A stretch of DNA of 64,000 nt from Candidatus Poribacteria bacterium (GTDB taxonomy: Bacteria > Poribacteria > WGA-4E > WGA-3G): positions 62,001 to 126,000 of the forward strand of contig JAPOZO010000089.1 in assembly GCA_026706025.1 (NCBI GenBank), read 5' to 3'. Positions 10,665-59,503 of this stretch are shown one piece after another (the stretch's first letter is position 1; each line of letters starts with the position of its first letter). Both the position numbers and the translations under genes were made by a program. A model generated the notes under the pieces. The model was not told the origin of the DNA. It saw nothing but the letters and a program-made list of their open reading frames with translations, and did no database searches.

Positions 10665-10872
10665 AACTCCGCTATTTCCTATGCCATATCCACGTCCACT
10701 TTTCAAATTTCCCACCTTTATCAATAATTGCAAATAGTTTTTAGACAAAAATTCAGATTTTTTCGTTTTTTCTAAAAATTATGCACAATTTCTGCCCCAA
10801 AATTGTATCTTTAATAATTAACCATAGCGCGGCGCGACACGGAAAAAGAAAATGTAATGATGGAGAACCCTG

Positions 10873-12195
10873 ATGGAAAAGGACGATGTGCAACTGATTC
10901 ATAGTATCTTGTTAGGCGACGACGAAGCATTCACGACCTTAGTCGGGAAGTATCAAAAGAGCGTTCACGCGCTTGCGTGGCGCAAGATTGGTGACTTTCA
11001 CTTCGCCGAAGAAATTACCCAAGATACTTTTCTTCAGGCATATAAGAAACTCGCGACCTTGAGAAATCCCAATCAGTTTGCAGGGTGGCTTTATGTCATT
11101 GCGACTAACCTCTGCAACAGGTGGCTCCAAAAGAAGAAACTTCCGACGCAATCACTGGAGGGGACATCTATGGCAGAGATAGAGAACGCTTCTTACAAAC
11201 GTTATGTATCCGAGCGACGGGAAATAGAAACTACCGAGCATCACCACGAAATCGTCAAAAAACTTCTGCAGAAACTACCAGAAAGTGAACGCACAGTAGT
11301 AACTCTCCATTATCTCGGTGAAATGACCATAAAGGAAATTAGCAAATTTTTAGGTGTCTCAGCGAATACGATTAATAGTCGGCTGCGCCGCGCGCGAGCG
11401 CGTCTACAGGAGAGAGAAGAACTCTTGATTCAGGAGATGCTCGGTAGCGTCCAACTACCTGTTAACCTTATGGAGAACATCGCCCAACAAGTTGCCAACA
11501 TAAAACCGACACCCCCAACACCCGTTGGGAAACCTTTGGTGCCATGGGCGGCTCTCGGCACAGCCGCTGTTCTAATTATATTGGGACTCGGCGTGGGGAA
11601 TCAATACCTCGCTCACTATCAGAAACCGTACAGTTTCGAGGCAGAATTTGAACCAACGATTGAAATCGTCGATGCACCTATTGTCCTTGATATTGATGCG
11701 AAATTGGCACTGCGAAACCAGTTTGGAAAGACCATTGTCCCTAATAAGAACAACCGGACAAGCACGTCTGTTGATGCTGAAACCCCAAGCATTCCACAAT
11801 CCGAAAAACGGTTCTTTGGGTTAACGCTCGCTGAAATTGAAGCGGAAATCCCCGATCTTGAGAAAGAAATCCGGACGAATCTCATCAAAGCCTCGGCACT
11901 CTACACCCAACTACGAAACACAGATGGAACAGCAGGTATGTCCTCCCGAATTGCCACATGGCGCGACGAAACTTGGAAAGAGGTGCAACGACTGTTCCAC
12001 GATGTCGCTAACACCGGAAAAATTCTGAGATATAGGTCTTATTTAAGAGTGACAGGTGTGGAGAAAGATCCGGTACTCCCCGGCGGATGGATCTATGCAC
12101 TGATGGAACCCCTCCCGATGCGGGTCACCCCCGATGTAACATTCAATGAATCTGATCAGGAAGACAGGACTAAGAGCACCGAAAATGAAAACTGA
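10873..12195 (+). CDS. Membrane-tethered ECF sigma factor with extracytoplasmic domain
   Basis: The 440-aa protein fuses three parts. Residues 1-200 are an ECF sigma factor, with region 2 containing EEITQDTFLQAYKKL and AGWLYVIATNLC, and region 4 containing LPESERTVVTLHYLGEM and the helix-turn-helix VSANTINSRLRRARARL. A membrane helix follows near 217-238 (PWAALGTAAVLIILGLGVGN). The remainder should face the periplasm, ending in a domain (about 315-430) with RFFGLTLAEIEAEIPDLEKEI and LPGGWIYALMEPLPM. The same domain without sigma is encoded at 13418, and the linker after the helix is nearly shared with the second tethered sigma factor at 38755. ATG 10873 has GGAGAA eight bases upstream. Release by proteolysis or conformational signalling is inferred; no separate anti-sigma gene is present. 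Confidence 0.88.
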   Translation: MEKDDVQLIHSILLGDDEAFTTLVGKYQKSVHALAWRKIGDFHFAEEITQDTFLQAYKKLATLRNPNQFAGWLYVIATNLCNRWLQKKKLPTQSLEGTSMAEIENASYKRYVSERREIETTEHHHEIVKKLLQKLPESERTVVTLHYLGEMTIKEISKFLGVSANTINSRLRRARARLQEREELLIQEMLGSVQLPVNLMENIAQQVANIKPTPPTPVGKPLVPWAALGTAAVLIILGLGVGNQYLAHYQKPYSFEAEFEPTIEIVDAPIVLDIDAKLALRNQFGKTIVPNKNNRTSTSVDAETPSIPQSEKRFFGLTLAEIEAEIPDLEKEIRTNLIKASALYTQLRNTDGTAGMSSRIATWRDETWKEVQRLFHDVANTGKILRYRSYLRVTGVEKDPVLPGGWIYALMEPLPMRVTPDVTFNESDQEDRTKSTENEN

Positions 12196-29000: not shown

Positions 29001-29516
29001 TATCTTCAAGAAACGAGCAAATTAACAACGGCACTTCACACATCTGCTAATAATTTCATTAACTCGCAACTTGGAGAAACCGCGCTCTCGGCATCCAAAA
29101 ACCATACCAATCAGCAGGTCCACGCGGATATTGAAGGACATATTATTAGTGGCAGGTTTGATAGACTCTTTAAAGATGAAACTGGGTGCTGGCAGGTAAT
29201 CAATTATGAAACCGGTAATGGTCAGGCATCAGACGCAGATCATCCAGAAATGGAACTTTATAGCCTACTTCTGCATCGACGTTACCCAGAACAACCGACA
29301 CTAACGATAAATATCTTCTTTTCTGAACAGGACCAATGTATACAGAGGCATTTCAACGTATCAGAATTGCAGGAAACTACCGAAGAGTGGCAGAAAAAAA
29401 TTTCGGCACTGCAGCGGGGCATTTATAATAAAAATACAGATCATTGCTGTTCTTGCCCCTACGCAGATCCGAACGGACAATGTATAATTACTGAATCACA
29501 AGGAGAAAAGCAATGA
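26028..29516 (+). CDS. AddA-like UvrD/Rep-type helicase with degenerate PD-(D/E)XK nuclease domain
   Basis: The 1162-aa protein is a superfamily 1A helicase fused to a RecB-type nuclease domain. Motif I AGAGSGKTTV (about 21-30), Ia ITFTDKAAAEMKDR, motif II VDEYQDTNELQ near 380, motif III GDPKQSIYGFRGAD near 408 and motif VI VAATRAQDR near 820 are all present, so the helicase should be active. The C-terminal region has the iron-sulfur pattern of AddB/RecB-like nucleases, with RCPLRY near 932 and CCSCPYADPNGQC near 1140. The catalytic motif that normally reads VDYKTG is WQVINYETG here, replacing the key Asp and Lys. Nuclease activity is therefore doubtful. No addB partner is nearby. It overlaps the next gene by four bases. 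Confidence 0.88.
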   Translation: MRLTPSQQEALNINKHVCVTAGAGSGKTTVLVERYLKILREGNATPREIVAITFTDKAAAEMKDRVIKRLSAQQGNEDSEESNSLQHFRDEMNSAHISTIHAFCSSILKEFPFQADVPANFSITSGIDQKLLLQRTLKKTLKDIATNLGDPHREELTRLLQRYGGQQKLVDFFSTMINQRDVVAQLMREIYDNRSETEIRENLQQQILEQLMPSIDVPEFVRCLNVVLQVATGKRKKIVSSLTQQLEPLSAQSPNSLEVLNLLKEIAYLIVTEKNSIAKRDFIGLKVEIISIETEINFLVSAAKKIKDTPSLGTDDNFLLSTTRDLLTLYTRILNDYETAKLSQGALDFNDLQLKTRDLLCNNKDIQKALIKRHKYYMVDEYQDTNELQHELVMLLTNQLKDANLFIVGDPKQSIYGFRGADVRVFEKIKQKIIDIGGEDISLTENFRSLRDAVGFVNYFFYTLMKDGTQTEFEVAYEALTQARPVPSNGGIEILLGKQGEKAVNEYALIAQHIQNMKTNRKIVWVRGDNGEELERPIAHGDIAILIRSRTHLPDLEHALLEADIPYLTTGGVGFYQRQEIYDIWNYLNFLNEPVKNQVSLAAVLRGPAFGISDTELYEISLQVEESLWNKAQQYQRPTNHLSTAIDILRKHCEFAHRMPVNRLIGTIVNETGLIGTLKIGRQAEQRWANYQKLLELARNFDGDENKQALPDFIEFLNILITEEPLEGQAPIEASTGAVRIMTIHAAKGLQFPIVIIPGLDRGGQTDREPFIDEVFGIGFSPLNPDEGYKKTGPEIITHMKNRSSEKDTAEKKRLFYVAATRAQDRLILSGTLSDKDQPQQMLEWLHTYLEINKENDLLNLDIEQDVFVDDRTSRQRFQLQIPISRVPADIAPAAEVTDEIAPVEFPEDLPSMPEPNGTFSSFTVAELANYARCPLRYQLENVLQIPTDAQDVAGLDKTEFTDAIHRTLARIRRPSDVPNLDTIINQVAENYLQETSKLTTALHTSANNFINSQLGETALSASKNHTNQQVHADIEGHIISGRFDRLFKDETGCWQVINYETGNGQASDADHPEMELYSLLLHRRYPEQPTLTINIFFSEQDQCIQRHFNVSELQETTEEWQKKISALQRGIYNKNTDHCCSCPYADPNGQCIITESQGEKQ

Positions 29517-30223
29517 AAAAATTAACACCAATCATCGCAATTATTACGTTTGCCTGCTTTTCAATAGGGATATGGCAACCCAGCTTTGCAGGCACATGGC
29601 GCGACGATTTTGAAGATAAAGACACCCGCGAATGGGAAATCTTTAATATCGACCGAAAGGTTGAAAAGTGGTGGGTCAGTGAAGGTGAAGCCGTCGGCGA
29701 AATCTTCTTACCCGGCTTCATGAGCCTCTGGATAACAGGCGAACTCTCATGGAAACACTACTCCGTCTCCTGTCGCGCAAAGCTCGTGGAAGACAAAGAT
29801 GAACCCCCAACCATCGGACTGACACTCCACGATAGAGGCGAAGAGGATAGCCGCTACCTCTTTTTTATCGATTATATTTTTGGCACCGTCCGAATTGTAA
29901 AGGCAGTTCAAGACGATTGGAACATCATTACCTACCAATTTGAAGCAGAAATCGATACGTGGTACGATCTGACCGCCACTATCTATGAAGATGGCACACT
30001 CGAATTTAAAATTGGCGATGAGGTATTTACCGCCCTTGACGAAGACCTCTTAAAAGGTGGACAAGCCGGTCTTGTTGTCGCAGATGGACGCGCACACTTT
30101 GATGATGTCGAAATCACAGGTGCAAATATCCCCAATGGGGGTCCCGGAAAACCACGTCCCGTGGAACCGCGAACCAAACTCGCTACCACATGGGGAAAAA
30201 TTAAGAAAATGGAACGACAATGA
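29513..30223 (+). CDS. Secreted LamG/DUF1080-like protein with C-terminal WG tail, A
   Basis: The 236-aa protein has a signal peptide cleaved near PSFAG (residue 25). The mature part is one concanavalin-like sandwich: GTWRDDFEDKD, WWVSEGEAVGE, YSVSCRAKLVED and AHFDDVEITG are the expected strands of the 3-keto-disaccharide-hydrolase/LamG-like fold. A Pro/Gly linker leads to the terminal RTKLATTWGKIKKMERQ, the shared WG tail. It is translationally coupled to the helicase (ATGA overlap) and followed 81 bases later by a clear paralogue. Carbohydrate binding or cleavage is a family-level expectation; no catalytic residues can be pointed out. The tail suggests a common export or anchoring fate. Confidence 0.85.
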   Translation: MKKLTPIIAIITFACFSIGIWQPSFAGTWRDDFEDKDTREWEIFNIDRKVEKWWVSEGEAVGEIFLPGFMSLWITGELSWKHYSVSCRAKLVEDKDEPPTIGLTLHDRGEEDSRYLFFIDYIFGTVRIVKAVQDDWNIITYQFEAEIDTWYDLTATIYEDGTLEFKIGDEVFTALDEDLLKGGQAGLVVADGRAHFDDVEITGANIPNGGPGKPRPVEPRTKLATTWGKIKKMERQ

Positions 30224-30304: not shown

Positions 30305-31030
30305 ATGATTAAAAAATGTCTCATTGCCGGACTTGTCGTTTGTAGTATCGCTTTGAACCAATTCGCACTTGCAGGCACTTGGAAAGATAGTTTTGAGGAC
30401 AACGACATGTCCGAATGGAAAATCGTTGATGATTGGGAAAATGCAGCAGGAAAGTGGTGGGTTGATAAAGGTGAAGCTGTCGCGGAATCATTGGGCGAAT
30501 CAAGTTTTGCTATGTGGCTGACGGGTGAATCTACATGGGAATACTACACTGTGTCCTGTCGAGCGAAATTAGTGAAAAGTAAAAAGGAACCTGCGACTTT
30601 CGGGATCGTGATGCATGCTAACAATAATGAGTTACTTGATGGACTACTTGATGAGCATTATTATTTTCGTGTCATTGGGGACTTTAACTTTATTAGTATC
30701 AGGAAATTCCGTCCATTTCCAGCCGGACCGGTCACACTCGGAGAATTTGATTTTGAAGTAAAAACAGATAGATGGTACCAACTCACTGCCATCACTCGTA
30801 GAAACGGTAAAATTGAATTCTATATCGATAAAAAATTGTTCACCGTATTCGATGCCAACCCCCTGGAAGCAGGGCAAACTGGGGTGGGCGTTTCAAATGC
30901 AGAAGTCCGCTTCGATGACGTTGAAATCACAGGTCAGAACATTGATGATGGGGGTCCGGGAAACACCACACTCTCCGTCAAACCGCAAGCTAAACTCACA
31001 ACTACGTGGGGACATCTGAAAAATAATTGA
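30305..31030 (+). CDS. Secreted LamG/DUF1080-like protein with C-terminal WG tail, B
   Basis: The 241-aa paralogue of the preceding gene has a signal peptide ending FALAG near residue 23 and the same strand pattern: GTWKDSFEDNDMSEW, WWVDKGEAVAE, YTVSCRAKLVKSK and VRFDDVEITGQN. It ends in AKLTTTWGHLKNN. The two mature domains have diverged strongly in the middle while signal, last strand and tail are kept. AAAGGAAA before ATG 30305 serves as ribosome site. Tandem duplication is the simplest origin. Ligand unknown. Confidence 0.85.
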   Translation: MIKKCLIAGLVVCSIALNQFALAGTWKDSFEDNDMSEWKIVDDWENAAGKWWVDKGEAVAESLGESSFAMWLTGESTWEYYTVSCRAKLVKSKKEPATFGIVMHANNNELLDGLLDEHYYFRVIGDFNFISIRKFRPFPAGPVTLGEFDFEVKTDRWYQLTAITRRNGKIEFYIDKKLFTVFDANPLEAGQTGVGVSNAEVRFDDVEITGQNIDDGGPGNTTLSVKPQAKLTTTWGHLKNN

Positions 31031-33918: not shown

Positions 33919-34770
33919 TTATTTTTTAAGTCGTCCCCATAGCGTCGCAAGTTTTCCTTCTGCTTCAACTGCAAATGTGCCATCGGTCCGCGCACCATTT
34001 TTACCCATTAAATGGTAGGCATTGCCCGATGTATCTGAGAACGCCCGTGTTCCGCTCGCTTCATCAAAATGCCACAACGCAATCGTCTTTGCGTCATCCT
34101 TGAACTTTGTACGCGGCGTGAAATCGCGTTTGGCGGTATTGTAACGCGCAACCGTTGAGATGCGGACTTCATCAATATAGCCCGAAAAATGACCCCAAAA
34201 ATGACCGCCGTGCCAATCAGACGCAATTTTCTCTCCAAATCCACCGATTGTAAAATCCCGTGGATGTTTGGCGTGTGAGAGGTCGGCTGCGAGAATTGTT
34301 CTTCCCTGTGAGATGCGCACGACATCGTTAATGATGAGCACCCTCTGTACCCCTTCCGCCTGAAAGACGACGTGATGCCATTGATTCAGGAATAAAGAAA
34401 AAGGCGGTACCATGCCAAACGCCACTCCACGCAAAGGATGAAGGTGCGTTGCACTCATGAGTCTTAAACCTAAGTTGGGCCCATGGTTCCAGACATACAT
34501 CCGCACCTGTTGGCTGAGAATCAGGGGATGTGTATCTCGGTTAGGCTGCGTAGTTAGATATATCCACGCTTCAAAGGTGAATTCATCTGTGCCTTCCGGC
34601 AAGAGGATACCGAAGGTCTCAAAGTCCAAAATGGCGTGGTCGTCCACCCCATCAAGAACTAAATAGTTCCCACCCGCAGGTGAAGGCGGTGGAATCGCTT
34701 CAGTACGTATCGGAATTAAAACAAGCAGAAAAAGGTAAGCAAAAATTGACAGATTTCGTAGATTTTTCAT
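33919..34770 (-). CDS. Secreted LamG-domain protein with WG tail, C
   Basis: This 283-aa product starts at ATG 34770 (AAGGA 11 bases before). A TTG seven codons earlier is possible but lacks a ribosome site. The signal peptide ends near RTEA. The LamG-like fold shows YLVLDGVDDHAIL, FTFEAWIYLTTQP, QWHHVVFQAEG, GYIDEVRISTVARY and IALWHFDEASG, then GKLATLWGRLKK as the last residues. It is the most diverged member of the minus-strand LamG block and the last gene of that block. LamG domains bind glycans or proteins; no enzyme motif is visible. Confidence 0.85.
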   Translation of the reverse strand: MKNLRNLSIFAYLFLLVLIPIRTEAIPPPSPAGGNYLVLDGVDDHAILDFETFGILLPEGTDEFTFEAWIYLTTQPNRDTHPLILSQQVRMYVWNHGPNLGLRLMSATHLHPLRGVAFGMVPPFSLFLNQWHHVVFQAEGVQRVLIINDVVRISQGRTILAADLSHAKHPRDFTIGGFGEKIASDWHGGHFWGHFSGYIDEVRISTVARYNTAKRDFTPRTKFKDDAKTIALWHFDEASGTRAFSDTSGNAYHLMGKNGARTDGTFAVEAEGKLATLWGRLKK

Positions 34771-34806
34771 CTTTGTAGGTTTCCTTCTCAAATCTTTCTA
34801 TGAATC

Positions 34807-35709
34807 TCAAAACGATTCTGACTTGACTTGACCCCATGTCGTTGTTAAAGAAGTGTCGGGACGAATCTCAAGATTACCAATACCTCTACTATCAACCACA
34901 GTAGCACCATTCATACCGATGAGCGTCTTCCCATTCCCAGACGTATCTTCAAACCGATCTGCACCCTCCTTATCATTAAAATTCCAGAGTGCTAACGTGT
35001 GTTCGTCATTCAAAAAACGAGGTGGTGGATCAAACGGATTGTGGCCCTGCGCGGCGCAATCATACCGAGCGATATTTGAAAACCTGATCGCATCAATTTC
35101 GCCTTGAAAACTACTCACTTGGTATAACAACCCACCGTTAGGACCCACAAACTTATCCTCACCATATCCGCCTACGACGAAATCTTGAACTCTTTCAGGT
35201 CTACGGATATGCAATCTCACCCTGTCCACACGAGGAAGTCTCCAGCCTTGACTAATTCGGTTGTTGGTCGCATGACAAAGCGTGCCGTTCTTGAAAATGA
35301 TTGCTATATAGTTCCATTGATCCTTCTGGAGTGGACTATCAGTTCCGGCAAGTCCGTGAGCTGTGTCTCCTGCAAGATATGCATGCCGATAACTGCAAAG
35401 TTGATTCTGTCCGAGTATACACTTCTCTCTTGCCTGCAACCCGATGGAAACTTGCTGATTCAGAATAAGGTCTCTATCTTTTTCCTTGGGTTCAGCTTTC
35501 GGATAGAACCATATTTCAACAGTAAATGCATGGGTGCCTTCAGGGAAAATATGTCCATGTTCCGCAAAAGGGAGTATTGCATAGTCATCCTCACCATCCA
35601 ACATCAAAACACCCCCGGAAGGCTCAAAAGAAAATACAGGCATAACTAATAAACTCAACAACAATACCGCACTGAGTACACTTAGTAGGAACTTAAAGTT
35701 AATATACAT
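34807..35709 (-). CDS. Secreted LamG-domain protein with WG tail, D
   Basis: The 300-aa protein has a signal peptide ending PVFSF near residue 28 and opens its mature domain with EPSGGVLMLDGEDDYAILPF. Other LamG strands are FTVEIWFYPKAEP, QWNYIAIIFKNGTLC, GEIDAIRFSNIARYD and LALWNFNDKEGADRFED. It ends DTSLTTTWGQVKSESF. It is one of four close paralogues (with 36750, 37790, 41947) that share the opening and ending segments but vary in the middle loops, where Cys residues suggest disulfides. Located 36 bases upstream of gene C on the same strand, it probably shares its transcript. Confidence 0.88.
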   Translation of the reverse strand: MYINFKFLLSVLSAVLLLSLLVMPVFSFEPSGGVLMLDGEDDYAILPFAEHGHIFPEGTHAFTVEIWFYPKAEPKEKDRDLILNQQVSIGLQAREKCILGQNQLCSYRHAYLAGDTAHGLAGTDSPLQKDQWNYIAIIFKNGTLCHATNNRISQGWRLPRVDRVRLHIRRPERVQDFVVGGYGEDKFVGPNGGLLYQVSSFQGEIDAIRFSNIARYDCAAQGHNPFDPPPRFLNDEHTLALWNFNDKEGADRFEDTSGNGKTLIGMNGATVVDSRGIGNLEIRPDTSLTTTWGQVKSESF

Positions 35710-35777
35710 CAGAAACCCTCCTTCTTAGGTTAAACATTAAAGTCCCTACCGCAAATGTATACAGCAGGGTTCTTTGT

Positions 35778-36611
35778 TTAGCGATCCCGCTTAATATCTG
35801 CCCAAGTTGTTGTCGCCTTTCCTGTAGGATCAACTGGAAGGCCACCAGCAATCTCCCTAAAGAAACCTTTCTGGTCCTTCGATTTATCAGGATAGATTTT
35901 GCAGACATTGTGCGTGTTATCGTCAAAATGTAAATTGAGATAGGCAGCTCCGCCAGTTTCGCCACACCGGTAAAGAACGACATTAGCACCTTTTTCCAGT
36001 TTGACTTCAATGTTATAATTAACGACCTGCGCGCCGCCTGTCCAAGTTGGATTGTTATACCACTTATTCCCATTAATCCAGATTTGGGCATGGTCATCGT
36101 GTGCTGGCGACATCACCGCCTTTATATCTTTCGGCGCAGCAACGACACATATAGCGTAGGTATCAATATTATCAGTGGGTCCCTCTCGGTTCATATTGTT
36201 TTGGCTCGCGGGATCCAGTTCAAAAACTGTCCAATCTCGAGTACCACCGTGGTCACGGTCCCATGCCATCTTAAGAGTCTGGGTCTTCTTTAAGCCTTTA
36301 AGGGTTGAGAGTGACTGCTGTGTGAGTTTACCTTTGGTGCCTTCCTCAATAAGGTCTATTCTACTTGAATTTTGGAAACCTTCATTGTTTTCATAATTTC
36401 CGTCGGGGCCGTACCACTTGGTAATCCAGTTTTTGTTATCAGCGTGGGATTCGCTCAACGCGCCTGCGTCGAGATCTTTGAACCAATCTGCTTCTTTTAA
36501 AGGCCCGTCGTCAATATTAACTTTTCCCTGCGCAAATGCCAAGTGTGAAGTTCCAACAACCAACGTAAAAACAACGACTATCGTAAGTATCAGTGGGTAA
36601 AACCTTTTCAT
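35778..36611 (-). CDS. Secreted beta-sandwich protein with WG tail, E (non-LamG)
   Basis: The 277-aa product starts at ATG 36611 behind GGAGG; a longer frame to 36635 has no ribosome site. The signal peptide ends LAFAQ near residue 28. The body does not follow the LamG pattern. WTVFELDPASQN, DDHAQIWINGNKWYN, VNYNIEVKLEKGANVVLYR and AAYLNLHFDDN look like a PA14/NPCBM-type carbohydrate-binding sandwich, but I cannot name the family firmly. It nevertheless ends TGKATTTWADIKRDR, a variant of the WG tail with Ala for Gly. The shared tail on a different fold is strong evidence that it is a separable module. Confidence 0.75.
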   Translation of the reverse strand: MKRFYPLILTIVVVFTLVVGTSHLAFAQGKVNIDDGPLKEADWFKDLDAGALSESHADNKNWITKWYGPDGNYENNEGFQNSSRIDLIEEGTKGKLTQQSLSTLKGLKKTQTLKMAWDRDHGGTRDWTVFELDPASQNNMNREGPTDNIDTYAICVVAAPKDIKAVMSPAHDDHAQIWINGNKWYNNPTWTGGAQVVNYNIEVKLEKGANVVLYRCGETGGAAYLNLHFDDNTHNVCKIYPDKSKDQKGFFREIAGGLPVDPTGKATTTWADIKRDR

Positions 36612-36749
36612 TAAAATTTGCCTCCTTATAGACAATGAAAAACGCGAAAGCAGATTTTGGAAATCCGCGTGTTACATCAGAAAGTCAAGTAGGGGTGTTT
36701 TGCTTGGGTGTTTCTTATAGGTTACCCAACCCTTACAATCTAATTTCAG

Positions 36750-37643
36750 TTAATCCGAAAACGGAATGTCTCTGGATTCCAACTTGATTTGCCCCCATGT
36801 CGTGGTTATAGAAGTGTTCGCAGGATTGACAGCAAGCACCCGACTGGTAGCAGCACCGTTCATGCCGATTAAGGTATACCCATTCCCTGATTCATCTTCA
36901 AACCGATCTGCACCCTCCTCCTCATTGAAATCCCAGAATGCCAACGTGTGCGCATCACTCTCGAAACGGTGCGGCGGATCAAACGGCGAGGTCCCCACCT
37001 CGACGGGTAAATCATACCGGGCGATGTTTGAAAACCTTATCGCATCAATTTCGCCATGAAAGTAAGGTATATGTTGGACTAATTCTTTTTTAGCAAAACC
37101 GCCCACACAGAAATGTTTAAACCATTCAGGGAAACCCAGATCCTCAACTATGACGTTCAGACGGTCATCTTTCTGTGTTTGAAAGATTTGATCGTTGTAT
37201 GCCACATACAACGTGCTGTCCTTGAAAATGACTGCCAGATAGTTCCATTGATCCTTTTTGATGGGAACACTCATGTGGCTGGGACCGTGCGCTCCTCCGC
37301 CTTCAAGATATGCTGTACCATAGGCACACACTTCACCCTTCTCACTGACCGGAAGTCTCCTACACTTATTATCTCTCTGCAATCCGAAGCGAACTTGCTG
37401 ACTTAGAATAATATTTGACTTTCCTAACTCTGGTTCAGATTTCGGATAGAACCATACCTCAACAGTAAATTCATCGGTCCCTCTTGGAAAAATATAACCG
37501 TGTTCAGCAAATGGTAGTATCGCATAGTCATCCTCGCCATCAAGCATCAAAACACCACCTGAAGGCTGAAAAGAAAATACAGGTATAACTAATAAACCGA
37601 GCAATAATACCACACTGGATAGCAATTTAAAGTTAATAAACAT
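36750..37643 (-). CDS. Secreted LamG-domain protein with WG tail, F
   Basis: The 297-aa protein starts at ATG 37643 with AAGGAAG upstream, aligned with the starts of its paralogues. The signal peptide ends near PVFSF. LamG strands FTVEVWFYPKSEPE, QWNYLAVIFKDSTLYVAYND, GEIDAIRFSNIARYD and LAFWDFNEEEGADRFED are clear. The tail is NTSITTTWGQIKLESRDIPFSD; here the signature is followed by ten extra residues, so the exact C-terminus is not critical. It is a close paralogue of D, G and H. A short segment at 36690-36715 nearby resembles part of the repeat at 56367. Confidence 0.87.
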   Translation of the reverse strand: MFINFKLLSSVVLLLGLLVIPVFSFQPSGGVLMLDGEDDYAILPFAEHGYIFPRGTDEFTVEVWFYPKSEPELGKSNIILSQQVRFGLQRDNKCRRLPVSEKGEVCAYGTAYLEGGGAHGPSHMSVPIKKDQWNYLAVIFKDSTLYVAYNDQIFQTQKDDRLNVIVEDLGFPEWFKHFCVGGFAKKELVQHIPYFHGEIDAIRFSNIARYDLPVEVGTSPFDPPHRFESDAHTLAFWDFNEEEGADRFEDESGNGYTLIGMNGAATSRVLAVNPANTSITTTWGQIKLESRDIPFSD

Positions 37644-37663
37644 CAAAAATCTTCCTTCCACGG

Positions 37664-37765
37664 TTACGTGTTTTTCGCACGTTCACAATCACGCTCACTA
37701 ATTGCTGCCAAAGTTTGTTTGACACGCTCTGAGTCTCGGCGGAAATACAGGAGTAATGTTGCCAT
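37664..37765 (-). CDS. Possible 33-aa peptide between LamG genes
   Basis: A small frame, MATLLLYFRRDSERVKQTLA then AISERDCERAKNT, starts at ATG 37765 with GAGG five bases upstream and fills the gap between two LamG genes on the same strand. Composition is protein-like and amphipathic, but the length makes chance likely. No family recognised. Confidence 0.22.
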   Translation of the reverse strand: MATLLLYFRRDSERVKQTLAAISERDCERAKNT

Positions 37766-37789
37766 AAGACCTCAAGTCCAAACTTAAAA

Positions 37790-38707
37790 CTATTTCGATT
37801 TGATTTGACCCCATATTGTTGTTAAAGAAGTGTCGGGACGAATTTCAAGTCCACCTTCAGGATCACGATCGAGATTGACACCCGTCCCGCCAATCGTAGT
37901 AGCACCATTCATACCGATTAGCGTTTTCCCATTCCCAGATGTATCCTCGAAGCGATCTGCCCCTTCCTTCTCATTAAAATCCCAGAGTGCCAACGTGTGT
38001 ACATCCGTGAAGAAACGATGCGGCGGATCAAACGGCGAGACCCCCTCCTCGCCGGGCAAATCATACCGGGCAATATTTGAAAACCTTATCGCATCAATCG
38101 CACCATGAAAGTAAGTCTTTCGCGATAACACTTGTTCATCTTTCGTTATCAACCAGTCTTCAATATATCCGCCTACAAAGAAATCTCTAACCGCTTCAGG
38201 GAGACGCAGCTCCGCAGCCACGACGTTCATAATGTCAAATTTTCCGCCGTTAATAATCTGATCGTTGTACGCCAAATAAAACGTGCTGTCCGTGAAAATG
38301 ACTGCCATGTAGTTCCATTGATCTCTTTTGATGACAGCATCAATGCCTGTAACACCTCTCGCTACACCTTCAAGATATGCTAAACCATAAGAACAAACTT
38401 GATCCTTCTTACCGAGCCTACCCCGACACCTATCCTCATTTCCGGTCAATCCGAAGACAATTTGCTGACTTAGAATGATATTTGACTCTAATGGCTTCGG
38501 TTCAGCTTTCGGATAGAACCACACCTCAGCCGTAAACGTATCGGTACTTTTTGGGAAAATATAGCCGTATTCTGCAAGGGGGAGGATCGCATAGTCATCC
38601 TCACCGTCAAGCACCAAAACACCACCCGAAGGCTCGAAAGAAAATACAGGCAGAACTAAACTAAACACTAACACCGCACTGAGTAGAAACTTACAACTAA
38701 TAAACAT
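37790..38707 (-). CDS. Secreted LamG-domain protein with WG tail, G
   Basis: The 305-aa product starts at ATG 38707, equivalent to its paralogues' starts; the open frame continues 33 bases further without a better site. The signal peptide ends near PVFSF. Strands FTAEVWFYPKAEPK, QWNYMAVIFTDSTFYLAYND, GAIDAIRFSNIARYD and LALWDFNEKEGADRFED mark the LamG fold. The protein ends DTSLTTIWGQIKSK. It begins 47 bases after the stop of the tethered ECF sigma gene, so the two are probably co-transcribed. Confidence 0.88.
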   Translation of the reverse strand: MFISCKFLLSAVLVFSLVLPVFSFEPSGGVLVLDGEDDYAILPLAEYGYIFPKSTDTFTAEVWFYPKAEPKPLESNIILSQQIVFGLTGNEDRCRGRLGKKDQVCSYGLAYLEGVARGVTGIDAVIKRDQWNYMAVIFTDSTFYLAYNDQIINGGKFDIMNVVAAELRLPEAVRDFFVGGYIEDWLITKDEQVLSRKTYFHGAIDAIRFSNIARYDLPGEEGVSPFDPPHRFFTDVHTLALWDFNEKEGADRFEDTSGNGKTLIGMNGATTIGGTGVNLDRDPEGGLEIRPDTSLTTIWGQIKSK

Positions 38708-38754
38708 CAAAAACCCCTTTTTTCCAAAAATTATTATCAAGAAGATGTCTGCAG

Positions 38755-41673
38755 CTATTTCTTTTTATTCTCTTCAAGCGAGATGTAAAACAGTCCCATC
38801 TTTTTAGCACTACTGATCAGAGCAGTAGCACTATAGAGTTTATCGTTAGCGATGACGAGCTCACTGATTGTATTTGGCACTTCCGAAGAAATCTGTTCCC
38901 ACTGTGCCCGCGTATTCAAACGATAACTGCCAGCATTGCCTGCACCATAAACTGTTGTGCCATCCACGGCAAATTTGTCTATGACGACGCGTGTACCCAT
39001 TCCATCAGTAAGCACGCGCCAGTTTTCCCCAGTTCGCGAAGTCACGACACCATTATCTGTTGCGACATAAACCGATGATCCTGCAAAGATTACATCTTCA
39101 AAGTGAGTGAAACGGAGCGGCAAGGTTGGTGTGACATCTCTCCAACTCTCCCCTTCATCAAGCGATTGAAATAGCTGACCATCCCATTTGCCAGCGTAGA
39201 CGGTCTCTCCTGAAACCGCTAATTTGAATACCTGGATGGATGTCTCAGAATGATTATCCTCTATTAATCCAGTGCTTGTCCACTCTGGATCACCGAGTTT
39301 CCATTTGAAAAGTTCTCCTATGTATTCTATATAAAACACATTACGACTCGCCGCAGCAGTCTCAGTTCTCAGACGAGATACGTGACGATAGTCTCGCTCT
39401 TTTGACTCATATTTTTCATCAGCAAGTTTATAACGATCGAAAATGGGGACACCTTGAACGGAAATGAAACTATCGCCATCGGTAGATAAACGGAAAATTC
39501 CGACATTGGCTCCTGTAGGGCCTCCAGTTAAAAGAGAATAAAGAATGTTGCCAACAACTATCAGTTTTAAATCAACGGTCACACTGGTAGTGAAGGGACT
39601 GAATCCAGCTTTTTGTCTATCAGTCGGAACTATTTTCCAGGACACGCCCGCATCCGTTGATTGATAAACTTCATAGCCATTATGGGCGTATAATCTATTG
39701 TTAAAGGCGACGATATCAACTATAACAGTTCCCATCATCCCGTTCATAAATAGATGCCATGACGCACCACCGTCAGTCGTGCGATGAATGCCGAACATGT
39801 TGGCTTTGTAACACGTTTTCTCGTTTACTATCACAGCTGGAAGGCGGCTTCTCCGCCGAAAATTTAGGTCGCTTCCAAGTTCGGTCCAAGTTTGTCCACC
39901 ATCTATTGAACGAGATTGCACGAGACCCAATGCCAAGAGTGTCTTACCAGTCGCTAAAACCGTTATACCCGCCGGTGGACCTGTAGGAAGATATTGATTT
40001 TCATGCCATATTTCAGTCCACGACGCGCCCAAGTCAGTTGAATGGAAAATTTTGGCAAAATGCCACCTATTATCCCGCATGACTTCGTCCATTTCACTTG
40101 GCGTTAATCTCACCAAAAACTCGTGCCCTACTCCAGCATAAACATTATTCCCTGAGACTGCCAAGGAACAGATGGCTCCGGATGTATCCAACGGCAGTTT
40201 TTTCCAGATGTCTGAATCGAGACGGTAGAGACCGTTCTCTGTAGCAGCAAACACTGTTTTTCCAACAGCAGCCACTGCGGAAATTTTTTCGCCTGTCAAC
40301 CCGTCGTTAAGAGAGGTCCATTGCGCACCACCATCTGTGGATCGGAAAATCCCACTATCTCTAAGGGCGAGATACATCGCAATAGACACCTGTGAACTGG
40401 ACGCTTCTTCAGCACCTGTAATGACAAGTTCAACAGCATCTCCCTTGGGTCGGGGCCCCAGTGTTATCCACGTCTCTCCCCTGTTGTCCGAAGTAAATAT
40501 CTCGTCAGTAGCAACAATATAAAGCCCACCACTATGCGCTGCCATCGGCATCAAAGATTCGCCAATCGGGAGACTCGCGTCAACGCGTGTCCATGCAGTC
40601 GCATCTGCCGTTAATCTGTATATCCCTGTTTGTAGAATAGCATAGACGGTCCCATCAGACGCAGCGAAGATATTGCGGACAGGTCCCGCTGGTGGTCCGT
40701 TTCCCTGCATCCACTGTGCTGTAGAAAACTGGGTGGCATTCTCCGATGGAACAGATGCTGAAGTTACATTAGAAACTTGGGTGCCAGCACGGCTGGTTTC
40801 ATTCGGACCCGTATCCCGTCCAACCTGATTTCGCACAGCGGGTTTCGTTGCTATATCAAGAATGATAGGGACATCAACGATTTCAATCGTCGGTTCAGAT
40901 TGTGCTTCAAAACTGTACGGCTTCTGGAAACGGGTAAGGTACCGGTTGCTCGCACCGAGGAGTAAGACAACCAAAACCGCAGCCGCTCCTAAAGCCATCC
41001 ATGGAAGGAACGGTTTAGCAGCCGGAGGCGGAGTAGGTTTCATGTCAGCGACCTGTCGCATAACGTTCTCGCCCAAACTTGTCGGTATTCGCACGCCACC
41101 GAAAACTTCTTGGATCATCAGTTCCTCGTCCTCTTGCAAACGCTTTCGACCCCGACGAAGCCTACTTTTAATTGTGCCCACGGACACCCCTAAAAATTTA
41201 CCAATCTCTTTAGCAGTCATCTCCCCGAGATAATAGAGTGTCACCACTGTGCGTTCGCTCTCTGGAAGCTTTGCGAGCAGCTGTTTGACGAGTTCACGGC
41301 GACGCTCGGCGCGTTCCGTCTCTCGCGCTTCTGATACGTGATGTATATAAGAGGATCTTTCAACTTCTTCCACAGGTGTGCCCTCCAGCGATTCCGTTAT
41401 GAGCCTTCTCTTCCGACTCCAATCAATACAAAGTCGATCCGCGATGACATACAGCCATCCAGCAAACTGATTATGATTCTTGAGTGTTGAGAGTTTTTTA
41501 TATGCTTGAAGGAAGGTGTCTTGCGTAATATCTTCAGCAATGTGAAAATCCCCGAGCTTCCGCCATACGAGCGCGTGCACGCTTTTCTGGTATCTTTGGA
41601 GCAAGATACCAAATGCTGCATCGTCTCCCGATAAGGTTCTCTGAATCAGTTGAACATCGTCTTCTCTTTCCAC
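38755..41673 (-). CDS. Membrane-tethered ECF sigma factor with BNR-type beta-propeller
   Basis: A GTG start at 41673 is chosen because it aligns with the start of the 10873 paralogue (EREDDVQLI against EKDDVQLI) and has GGGGGGA just upstream; a longer frame to 41715 exists. The 972-aa protein has ECF region 2 (EDITQDTFLQAYKKL, AGWLYVIADRLC), region 4 (LPESERTVVTLYYLGEM, VSVGTIKSRLRRGRKRL), a membrane helix near 220-245 and a linker with PTIEIVDVPIILDI almost identical to the paralogue. The extracytoplasmic 650 residues form a propeller with at least seven Asp boxes such as STDGGAQW, STDLGASW, SIDGGQTW, TTDGGASW and SLDEGESW. Such propellers bind glycans or proteins, so it may sense an external ligand. 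It sits inside the LamG/WG-tail block. Confidence 0.9.
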   Translation of the reverse strand: MEREDDVQLIQRTLSGDDAAFGILLQRYQKSVHALVWRKLGDFHIAEDITQDTFLQAYKKLSTLKNHNQFAGWLYVIADRLCIDWSRKRRLITESLEGTPVEEVERSSYIHHVSEARETERAERRRELVKQLLAKLPESERTVVTLYYLGEMTAKEIGKFLGVSVGTIKSRLRRGRKRLQEDEELMIQEVFGGVRIPTSLGENVMRQVADMKPTPPPAAKPFLPWMALGAAAVLVVLLLGASNRYLTRFQKPYSFEAQSEPTIEIVDVPIILDIATKPAVRNQVGRDTGPNETSRAGTQVSNVTSASVPSENATQFSTAQWMQGNGPPAGPVRNIFAASDGTVYAILQTGIYRLTADATAWTRVDASLPIGESLMPMAAHSGGLYIVATDEIFTSDNRGETWITLGPRPKGDAVELVITGAEEASSSQVSIAMYLALRDSGIFRSTDGGAQWTSLNDGLTGEKISAVAAVGKTVFAATENGLYRLDSDIWKKLPLDTSGAICSLAVSGNNVYAGVGHEFLVRLTPSEMDEVMRDNRWHFAKIFHSTDLGASWTEIWHENQYLPTGPPAGITVLATGKTLLALGLVQSRSIDGGQTWTELGSDLNFRRRSRLPAVIVNEKTCYKANMFGIHRTTDGGASWHLFMNGMMGTVIVDIVAFNNRLYAHNGYEVYQSTDAGVSWKIVPTDRQKAGFSPFTTSVTVDLKLIVVGNILYSLLTGGPTGANVGIFRLSTDGDSFISVQGVPIFDRYKLADEKYESKERDYRHVSRLRTETAAASRNVFYIEYIGELFKWKLGDPEWTSTGLIEDNHSETSIQVFKLAVSGETVYAGKWDGQLFQSLDEGESWRDVTPTLPLRFTHFEDVIFAGSSVYVATDNGVVTSRTGENWRVLTDGMGTRVVIDKFAVDGTTVYGAGNAGSYRLNTRAQWEQISSEVPNTISELVIANDKLYSATALISSAKKMGLFYISLEENKKK

Positions 41674-41822
41674 GAGATCCCCCCTGATGAAAGGATGGCA
41701 TCGCGTCCTATGCACTCAAAGACTGAACCTGATGTAGAGTCTTGTAATACCATCTCTAAAATTTTATATTCCATCAGCACCGTTTATGAAGTATGAAAAT
41801 CCAGTTCGCCCCAGGCCCGGTA

Positions 41823-41844
41823 GGTGCGGTTTCCTAACCGCACC
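41823..41844. repeat. GTAGG-type palindrome with perfect 9-bp stem
   Basis: GGTGCGGTT (41823-41831), loop TCCT and AACCGCACC (41836-41844), preceded by CGGTA, form a perfect hairpin between the tethered sigma gene and the LamG gene upstream. It belongs to the dispersed GTAGG palindrome family; without a T tract on either side it is not an obvious terminator. Confidence 0.55.
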
Positions 41845-41946
41845 GGACTTTCACAAAAAATTACCGAATTAATCCTTTTTTAATTCTCCATCTAACCACA
41901 CCGAGCCTGTTATGTCAAGTGTTTGCAGCCCATGAGAGTTTCAAGT

Positions 41947-42870
41947 TCAAAACGATTCTGACTTGACTTGGCCCCAGGTCGTCGCTAAAGAGGTGTCTGG
42001 TCGAATCTCAAGCCCATCTTCAGGAGCACGCTCAAGATTAACACCCGTTCCACCAAGCGTAATGGCACCATTCATACCGATTAACGTTTTTCCATTCCCC
42101 GATTCATCTTGAAAGTGATCTGCCCCTTCCTCGTCATTAAAATCCCAGAATGCCAACGTGTGCGCATCAATAAAAAAATGAGGCGGCGGTTCAAATGGCG
42201 AGGGACCCCGCTCGGCAGGTAAATCATATCGAGCGATATTTGAAAACCTTATCGCATCAATCGCACCATGAAAGTACGTCTCTCGGGCTAACACTCGCCC
42301 ATCCCTATTGACTATTAACTTATCTTCAGCATAGCCACCGATAAAGAAATCTTTAAACCCCTCAAGGAAAAATATCTCCGCAGCCACGACGTTCATAAAG
42401 TCACGTTTCGCACCCCGAAGAATTTGATTGTTGTACGCCAAATAAATCGTGCTGTCCTTGAAAATGACTGCCAGATAGTTCCATTGATCCGTCTTGATGA
42501 CAGCATCAATACCTCTGACACCGTTCGCCGCTGCGCCTTCAAGGTATGCTAAACCGTAAGAACAGACTTGATCCTTCTTACCGACCCTACCTCTACAATC
42601 ATCTGCCGTCAATCCGAAAGCAACTTGCTGACTCAGAATGACACCTTTCTCTCCTTGCTCGGGTCGAGATTTCGGATAGAACCACACCTCAGCCGTAAAC
42701 GCATCGGTATCTCTCGGAAAAATATAGCCATGTTCGGCAAGTGGAAGGATCGCATAATCATCTTCACCATCCAGCATCAAAACACCACCCGAAGGTTCAA
42801 AAGAAAATACAGGAAAAACTAAACTCAGCAAGAACACCACACTGAGTAGCAATTTACAGCTCATATACAT
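41947..42870 (-). CDS. Secreted LamG-domain protein with WG tail, H
   Basis: The 307-aa protein has a signal peptide ending PVFSF near residue 25, LamG strands FTAEVWFYPKSRPE, QWNYLAVIFKDSTIYLAYN, GAIDAIRFSNIARYD and LAFWDFNDEEGADHFQD, and the tail DTSLATTWGQVKSESF. It is the most upstream gene of the minus-strand block and is closest in sequence to G. The last nine residues are identical to those of D, pointing to recent duplication or gene conversion. A repeat element starts 31 bases upstream of its start codon. Confidence 0.88.
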   Translation of the reverse strand: MYMSCKLLLSVVFLLSLVFPVFSFEPSGGVLMLDGEDDYAILPLAEHGYIFPRDTDAFTAEVWFYPKSRPEQGEKGVILSQQVAFGLTADDCRGRVGKKDQVCSYGLAYLEGAAANGVRGIDAVIKTDQWNYLAVIFKDSTIYLAYNNQILRGAKRDFMNVVAAEIFFLEGFKDFFIGGYAEDKLIVNRDGRVLARETYFHGAIDAIRFSNIARYDLPAERGPSPFEPPPHFFIDAHTLAFWDFNDEEGADHFQDESGNGKTLIGMNGAITLGGTGVNLERAPEDGLEIRPDTSLATTWGQVKSESF

Positions 42871-43154: not shown

Positions 43155-43184
43155 TCGACATTTTCCACCGCTTTACGATATAAT
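43155..43184 (+). promoter_or_regulatory. Sigma-70-like promoter
   Basis: TCGACA (43155-43160), an 18-base spacer and TATAAT (43179-43184) lie 32 bases before the GTG of the small gene at 43217, giving a short leader. Confidence 0.5.
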
Positions 43185-58714: not shown

Positions 58715-59503
58715 CTATCTCTTCAAATTACCCCACATCGTCGCCAATTTACCACGCGCCGAAACATCAAGCGTATCGCTAACAATCTTCTGGAGTTCCG
58801 CTTCAGTCAGCGCATAGTTGGCTAACATTAATTCATCAATACGTCCCTGAAAGAAACGGGGACAACATCCGTTATTCTCACCGCCGAACCGTAAAGGCTT
58901 ATCCGCTCTGCTTAGACCGGGTCCCTTCTGCGCGATAGCAGTGCCATCAGATTCACCATTGATATAGAAACCGGCTTCCTTGCCATCCCACACAACAGCA
59001 ACATGGCTCCACTCTTTCGCTTTGATCTTGCCGTCAGAAATATGGTAACCAGGGACACTGGTCTCGTAGAAGTAGTAAGCGAGCTTCCCTTCTCCGGGTT
59101 CAATTTGCAGATAATAGGTGTTCTTGTAAAAGATAGTGAATTTATTTTCCTGACCACCCGCGGGGAGTTCGTCAGGATAAACCCACGCCATCATAGTAAT
59201 GGCTTCGTCTATATCAATCTCATCGGAGTGTGCAACCTCTATGAAATCAGCTTTGCCAGCTTCACCCGCCATCTGCACGGCTTCGCCGAGAATGCCTTCA
59301 GCCCACTTGATATTTCCCTCGAATTCACCGACCAAGCCAGCAGTCGCCTCCTCGCTCTGTTTCCCGTTACCTTCGTCGAAGTGCCAGACATAAAGCTGCT
59401 TACCGAGTTGTTTCACATTACCCTTCCCGCCCGCAGTGTACCCCGCGAAGCAGAGCGATAGACTTAGAAAAACGCATAGCATCATAAGCATCTGGGTTCT
59501 CAT
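58715..59503 (-). CDS. Secreted LamG-domain protein with WG tail, I
   Basis: The 262-aa protein has a signal peptide ending LCFAG near residue 20. A LamG-like (concanavalin) domain follows with YVWHFDEGNGKQ, ITMMAWVYPDELP, EWSHVAVVWDGKEAGFYING and GRIDELMLANYALTEAE, the last being a typical LamG ending. The final residues are RGKLATMWGNLKR. It is not close to the 34-42 kb paralogues, yet it carries the same tail. Glycan or protein binding at the cell surface is likely. Confidence 0.88.
   Translation of the reverse strand: MRTQMLMMLCVFLSLSLCFAGYTAGGKGNVKQLGKQLYVWHFDEGNGKQSEEATAGLVGEFEGNIKWAEGILGEAVQMAGEAGKADFIEVAHSDEIDIDEAITMMAWVYPDELPAGGQENKFTIFYKNTYYLQIEPGEGKLAYYFYETSVPGYHISDGKIKAKEWSHVAVVWDGKEAGFYINGESDGTAIAQKGPGLSRADKPLRFGGENNGCCPRFFQGRIDELMLANYALTEAELQKIVSDTLDVSARGKLATMWGNLKR

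Follow-up and report, generated by a model that had tools for sequence, protein, structure and literature searches.

IutY of Pseudomonas putida, an ECF243 sigma/anti-sigma hybrid of an iron cell-surface signalling system, consists of an ECF sigma factor with an extracytoplasmic part attached through a membrane helix, and is activated by Prc and RseP proteolysis (PMC8999054). ECF52 sigma factors, e.g. SCO4117 of Streptomyces, combine a membrane region, a proline-rich stretch and an external carbohydrate-binding domain, and their gene is self-regulating (PMC5826349). The clostridial SigI/RsgI cellulosome regulators are present as many paralogues per genome, with differing external sensors and with secreted surface proteins as targets (PMC10575876). 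ECF57 proteins carry WD40-type C-terminal repeats, and a cysteine pair joining their sigma domains has been described (PMC8999054). For the Poribacteria, whose sponge habitat is taken here from the literature, we found no published description of the sigma factors or of the WG tail treated below, and neither sigma factors nor LamG are mentioned in the paper on Poribacteria single-cell genomes.

We analysed a 64,000-nucleotide stretch of a Candidatus Poribacteria genome (hereafter the window; all coordinates are window positions), whose near relatives are Candidatus Poribacteria, mostly metagenome-assembled genomes. Open reading frames and Pfam searches delimit at 33919-42870 a minus-strand cassette of seven genes, six for exported tail proteins and one for an ECF sigma factor, in the transcription order LamG, sigma, LamG, LamG, the gene at 35778, LamG, LamG, which agrees with the sequence-only reading of this DNA. 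The first gene (41947-42870) encodes a LamG-like exported protein ending in the WG tail ATTWGQVKSESF, and scores 27.8 bits with PF13385 against a cut-off of 27.6. It is followed by the gene of the membrane-tethered sigma factor (38755-41673) and then by LamG-like exported WG-tail proteins at 37790-38707, 36750-37643, 34807-35709 and 33919-34770. The last of these, with 37.2 bits for PF13385, is the most frequent partner in related cassettes. In total, four LamG genes exceed the Pfam cut-off for Laminin_G_3, and the fifth (open frame 37790-38740) has a sub-threshold match with an E-value of 2e-4. The AlphaFold model of the LamG protein encoded at 33919-34770 shows a beta-sandwich, then a low-confidence linker up to the tail. 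The exported product of 35778-36611 has no recognised fold and no match in Pfam or NCBIfam, and homologues 81-88% identical to it are encoded in five related cassettes (L092, L095-L098). As set out below, we consider, with a probability of roughly 70%, that these genes encode a one-protein transmembrane sensor-sigma system that would drive its own operon, including six exported lectin-like tail proteins.

The tail itself follows the consensus V-x-P-x-G-K-L-A/T-T-T-W-G-x-L-K, usually at most 10 residues from the C-terminus, and reads GKLATTWGxLK at the C-termini of the cassette proteins. The claim that all but the sigma factor carry it was confirmed for the six non-sigma genes (6/6), the 35778 product having the variant TWADIK (TTTWADIKRDR). 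The tail DNA pattern has 119 matches in the genome compared to 1 in the reversed control; the tail, which is thus far more frequent than chance would give, is found on about 3.5% of background genes (10/287), compared to 0.37% of internal 22-mers, and 97% of tail genes encode a hydrophobic N-terminus, compared to 40% of other genes. The pattern was present in each of the 60 related genomes that were searched, from 17 genera of one class, with an excess over the control that is small in some of them. No Pfam or NCBIfam model for the WG tail was matched by the proteins scanned. The T9SS C-terminal sorting domain TIGR04183 was considered as an identity for the tail and rejected, given zero NCBIfam matches to E 0.01 among the six cassette tail proteins. 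Further WG-tail genes lacking the sigma motif described below lie in the window at 29513-30223, 30305-31030 (with a weak 3-keto-disaccharide hydrolase match) and 58715-59503.

The sigma gene lies in a 986-aa open reading frame with matches to Sigma70_r2 (PF04542, residues 38-104, E 5e-14) and Sigma70_r4_2 (PF08281, residues 141-193, E 1e-16), corresponding to 41137-41604, and to BNR/sortilin-type repeats. The true start is the GTG at 41673, which has a conserved Shine-Dalgarno sequence, and not 41715, so that the product has 972 aa. The protein has regions 2 and 4 without region 3, with PF04542, PF08281 and TIGR02937 above cut-off, as expected for an ECF sigma factor, and the best PDB relatives of its sigma domains are ECF sigma factors, SigW among them. 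Downstream of these domains lies a single transmembrane segment, LPWMALGAAAVLVVLLLGASNRYLT (40933-41007), the core of which contains no charged residue in 40/40 relatives (alignment A1). It would be conceivable that this protein is a degenerate fusion in which the propeller does the work and the sigma part no longer functions, as a locus in the complete genome G021 might suggest (G021:C1:2647835-2650018), where an 844-aa open frame retains a BNR ectodomain 64% identical to that of the window without a sigma-domain match. This explanation seems hardly credible, since all members tested give good scores for sigma regions 2 and 4, many columns of the sigma domain do not vary among the 40 relatives, and the promoter motifs are maintained.

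The window system resembles IutY, ECF52 and SigI/RsgI, but differs from IutY and ECF52 in the defining features tested. As in IutY, a membrane helix connects an ECF sigma factor with a part outside the cytoplasm; the ectodomain is a beta-propeller here, and IutY has an anti-sigma portion; no zinc-finger or FecR anti-sigma part was found in the linker by Pfam or in the 40-member alignment, no FecR-type Pfam match in the sigma protein as a whole, and no receptor-type match among the seven genes. Likewise, the succession of ECF sigma domains, membrane region, proline-rich stretch and external domain recalls ECF52, a group with a zinc finger and exclusive to Actinobacteria, whereas in the window family the stretch from sigma region 4 to the helix is free of cysteine in all 40 members. 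With SigI/RsgI the family has in common multiple paralogous sigma systems, each with its own external sensor and with secreted surface proteins as targets (predicted ones here); however, those regulators are split between two polypeptides and SigI falls outside the standard ECF factors, whereas here sensor and sigma factor form one chain. Finally, ECF57 proteins too are ECF sigma factors with a large propeller-type extension at the C-terminus, but the window gene has BNR repeats and a GH74-like fold rather than WD40 repeats, though some other paralogues may differ in this respect.

The ectodomain (38779-40683) is predicted to form tandem beta-propellers. The AlphaFold model (mddbc32d43e5e) is good across the propellers, mostly above 80 pLDDT, and weak at residues 214-317, so that the membrane and stalk region has no usable model. 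The top Foldseek matches are the double 7-blade propellers of GH74 xyloglucanases (E 1e-20, 13-16% identity), a likeness limited to fold similarity and local profile matches. Lower matches are the tandem-propeller sensor domains of BT4663 and BT4673 (E 1e-14 to 1e-17, 10-11% identity), which in BT4663 belong to a hybrid two-component system and not to a sigma factor.

Because Lys and Arg flank the membrane helix on both sides, the positive-inside rule is indecisive for the topology. The orientation is indicated instead by seven loci of the same genus (L163-L165, L167-L169, L171) that have a type A sigma domain, helix and stalk and in which the BNR ectodomain is absent. In L163, the sigma/helix/stalk part is 82% identical to the window protein up to residue 360 of the window ORF, and the locus occupies the genomic site of the window cassette, flanked by ASPIC/FG-GAP and oxidoreductase/PhyH genes. 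Six of the seven loci encode a protein of 649-658 aa, and the open frame of L171 is shorter (379 aa). In the swap proteins checked (L163 and L164), the sigma part is fused to a Kelch propeller with a WG-like terminal tail. The Kelch part shares 73% identity across 341 residues with a free Kelch-tail protein, which bears a signal peptide and in L092 and L096 is encoded directly behind BNR-sigma genes. Sigma-Kelch-WG-tail fusions were also found in another family of the order (genome G049; L252:4211-6049 and L255:7232-8692). Since a homologue of the swapped domain is exported, a location of the propeller ectodomain outside the cell is very probable. The whole is probably a one-protein sensing system in which sensors can be exchanged. 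The proposal that the propeller senses an external or envelope ligand is thus upheld for the placement of the ectodomain; the ligand may be a glycan or an envelope component. An unlikely reading, though worth stating, is that the sensor surveys how the products of its operon are exported or assembled on the surface. Some sigma ectodomains consist of a Kelch propeller with a WG tail and can take the place of a secreted product of the operon, so that one shared machine for export or docking might recognise the tail, the tethered copy reporting the occupancy of the machine or of its surface sites.

In order to look for the shared non-sigma-70 promoter that the sequence-only reading had suggested, we derived a motif from the upstream regions of the sigma paralogues, and not from ortholog footprinting; the direct alignment of orthologous sigma upstreams aligned just the ribosome-binding region. 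The genome has 57 paralogous genes of this sigma-domain type, most with a membrane helix and 22 with a BNR propeller (figures for the whole genome rest on pattern and protein searches and on some 1.2 Mb of stretches, part of them overlapping). Their upstream regions have in common the motif TTATGCAACCTTT-N11/12-CGCGTCATTA, a bipartite, ECF-type promoter motif that is previously unseen. A matrix trained solely on sequences upstream of sigma genes, and then run elsewhere, placed the motif directly upstream of 43/57 sigma genes and at the head of the same-strand gene run (gaps of at most 400 bases) in 51/57 cases, as a putative recognition site of the sigma factor itself. A conserved -35 element, a CGTC-like -10 element and autoregulation are typical of ECF promoters. 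A score of at least 18 bits was reached at 75 sites in 820 kb of sigma loci (1-3 in Markov sequence) and at 7 sites in 400 kb of background (1 in Markov sequence); almost all motif sites are intergenic. The textbook ECF pattern GGAAC-N-GTC was tried as well, and was not enriched upstream of tail or sigma genes.

Within the window, two sites reach 18 bits, each heading a sigma unit. One of them heads the cassette on the minus strand at 43052-43019, 148 bases ahead of the first LamG ORF, with the sequence TAATGCATCTTTT-N11-TTCGTCTTTA and 27.6 bits; none of 3,000 simulated 300-base sequences scored 27 bits. The other (10779-10813) belongs to a second tethered-type ECF sigma gene at 10873-12195, for a protein of 440 aa without a recognised ectodomain. 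The orthologous cassettes with enough upstream sequence are motif-headed without exception (18/18), and in L090, too, the motif lies upstream of the LamG gene. A strict form of the pattern matched 38 times in this genome (1 in the reversed control) and 4-47 times in each of 35 other genomes of the genus (0-6 in the reversed control). It is genus-specific, with 4-47 matches per genome in the 36 same-genus genomes and 0-2 in 24 others.

The correspondence between promoter and sigma factor extends to subtypes. Two types of sigma domain, which share about 70% identity, occur with ectodomains that resemble each other, and the change-over lies approximately ahead of the membrane helix. Type A promoters have a spacing of 11 and TTCGTC or TCCGTC (in the window, -N11-TTCGTCTTTA, subtype A), and type B promoters a spacing of 12 and CGTATC, with the element CGTATCTTTA. 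An A sigma goes with an A promoter in 14/14 cases and a B sigma with a B promoter in 11/11, i.e. in 25/25 overall, also where one or two genes, including tail genes, separate promoter and sigma gene. For the second sigma gene of L096, the type B promoter was noted before its sigma domain was typed B. Orthologous loci are not independent and promoter and sigma subtype could co-vary through physical linkage and joint inheritance; because shared ancestry and linkage could yield part of the match, its Fisher value is descriptive. Taken together, the DNA evidence suggests a sigma factor that would recognise its matching promoter and activate the operon to which its gene belongs.

The tail genes as a whole were scanned with the same matrix. 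A sigma factor acting as general regulator of all tail-bearing exported proteins would be in line with the enrichment of tail genes beside BNR-sigma genes and with the 28/66 tail genes of sigma loci that lie in motif-headed runs. However, the motif is missing from the position directly upstream in 87/91 tail genes, and each of the other four is the first gene of a sigma cassette and precedes a BNR-sigma gene (a fifth motif-bearing tail gene, in L215, sits just after a BNR-sigma gene). Moreover, none of 10 background tail genes has the motif within 3 kb, monad and dyad enrichment in 65 tail-gene upstreams returned the Shine-Dalgarno sequence and no other common motif, and the tail occurs in 17/17 genera of the class tested, the motif in one genus. 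These upstream scans largely refute such a general role, which we consider very unlikely. Given the 87/91 tail genes without the motif, and the near-absence of linkage and motif outside the genus, the control would concern the sigma factor's own operon and not the whole secretome. Hence, the earlier claim that the sigma domain controls the exported tail proteins would apply to the motif-headed cassette operon and finds no support for tail proteins in general (4/91 with the motif).

Tail genes account for 19/63 neighbours of BNR-sigma genes, compared to 10/287 in the background (Fisher 3e-9) and to 10/104 for neighbours of other sigma paralogues, and for 12/22 BNR-sigma genes at least one of the two closest genes on either side is a tail gene of the same strand. 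In the complete genome G021 the trend is weaker (a same-strand tail gene no more than 3 kb away in 3/8, where 0.52 would be expected; P 0.0125). The promoter-sigma-tail cassette is repeated in about 19 genomes of the genus, and the closest relatives of the window protein (63-93% identical) adjoin tail genes in every cassette with flanking sequence, in several genomic contexts; L064 is a short contig with the sigma gene alone and hence has no flanks, and the partner gene in L106 has the variant tail TTWVQLK. In other families of the order, a tail gene is nearby in one of nine BNR-sigma loci and absent in eight. The predicted co-conservation of propeller-sigma and WG-tail genes is therefore observed within the genus and not beyond it, so that the refuting condition set in the sequence-only reading, homologues consistently away from tail genes, receives a divided answer.

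The same motif was also found ahead of genes for an ABC ATPase, a MoxR ATPase, TPR proteins and sigma-54 activators (L206, L219, L221, L230, L234, L188), so that the regulon of the sigma family is probably wider than its own operons. It could therefore be argued that the family serves mainly envelope or transport functions, the tail genes being passengers brought in by lineage-specific expansion in recombination hot spots, all the more as both families are large (57 sigma genes and, by extrapolation, roughly 160 tail genes) and sigma-tail linkage is rare beyond the genus. Nevertheless, this linkage is same-strand in 12/12 cases, is stronger at propeller-type sigma genes than at the others and is kept across several genomic contexts, and several cassettes have tail genes between promoter and sigma gene, which makes a passenger role rather improbable.

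We return to the sensor-sigma operon as the preferred reading. Because the motif at 43052-43019 precedes the first tail gene, the seven genes would be co-transcribed as one putative operon of the sensor and six tail proteins. The gap between the sigma gene and the next LamG gene is exactly the 47 bases first reported, provided that the latter starts at ATG 38707, and 14 bases with the longest ORF. Intergenic gaps of 138-146 bases within the cassette could harbour other promoters. Terminators inside the cassette show no excess (7, compared to 8.7 in shuffles). Sigma-70 promoter matches in the region number 27, compared to 16 in shuffles, and the two best, at 43155 and 43564, are on the plus strand outside the cassette. 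An inverted repeat, GGTGCGGTTTCCTAACCGCACC, lies at 41819-41846, in the interval that separates the first LamG gene from the sigma gene, and a hairpin resembling it is present upstream of a related sigma gene (L104).

In the proposed mechanism, the ECF sigma factor would be tethered to the cytoplasmic membrane through its own C-terminal membrane helix and would display the double beta-propeller sensor outside the cell. Upon meeting its cue, the propeller would cause the sigma segment to be freed or activated, and the active sigma factor would transcribe from the matching promoter at 43052-43019, which would read its own operon, so that the sensor and the six exported tail proteins would be made together. 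Since two full-length site-2 proteases are encoded in the genome, a proteolytic release of the IutY type, a model borrowed from that system, is possible, and the sigma factor may be released through site-2-protease-type proteolysis.

Few cases of sigma factors tethered by an external sensor have been characterised. In this case, the genomes of a single genus of uncultured sponge symbionts each carry dozens of them, with exchangeable sensors and sigma domains and with matching promoters that can be read from the sequence. Promoter specificity, sensor swapping and the meaning of the class-wide tail are thus testable with purified parts and without culture, and the system may show how a symbiont senses the surface polymers of sponges or of microbes.
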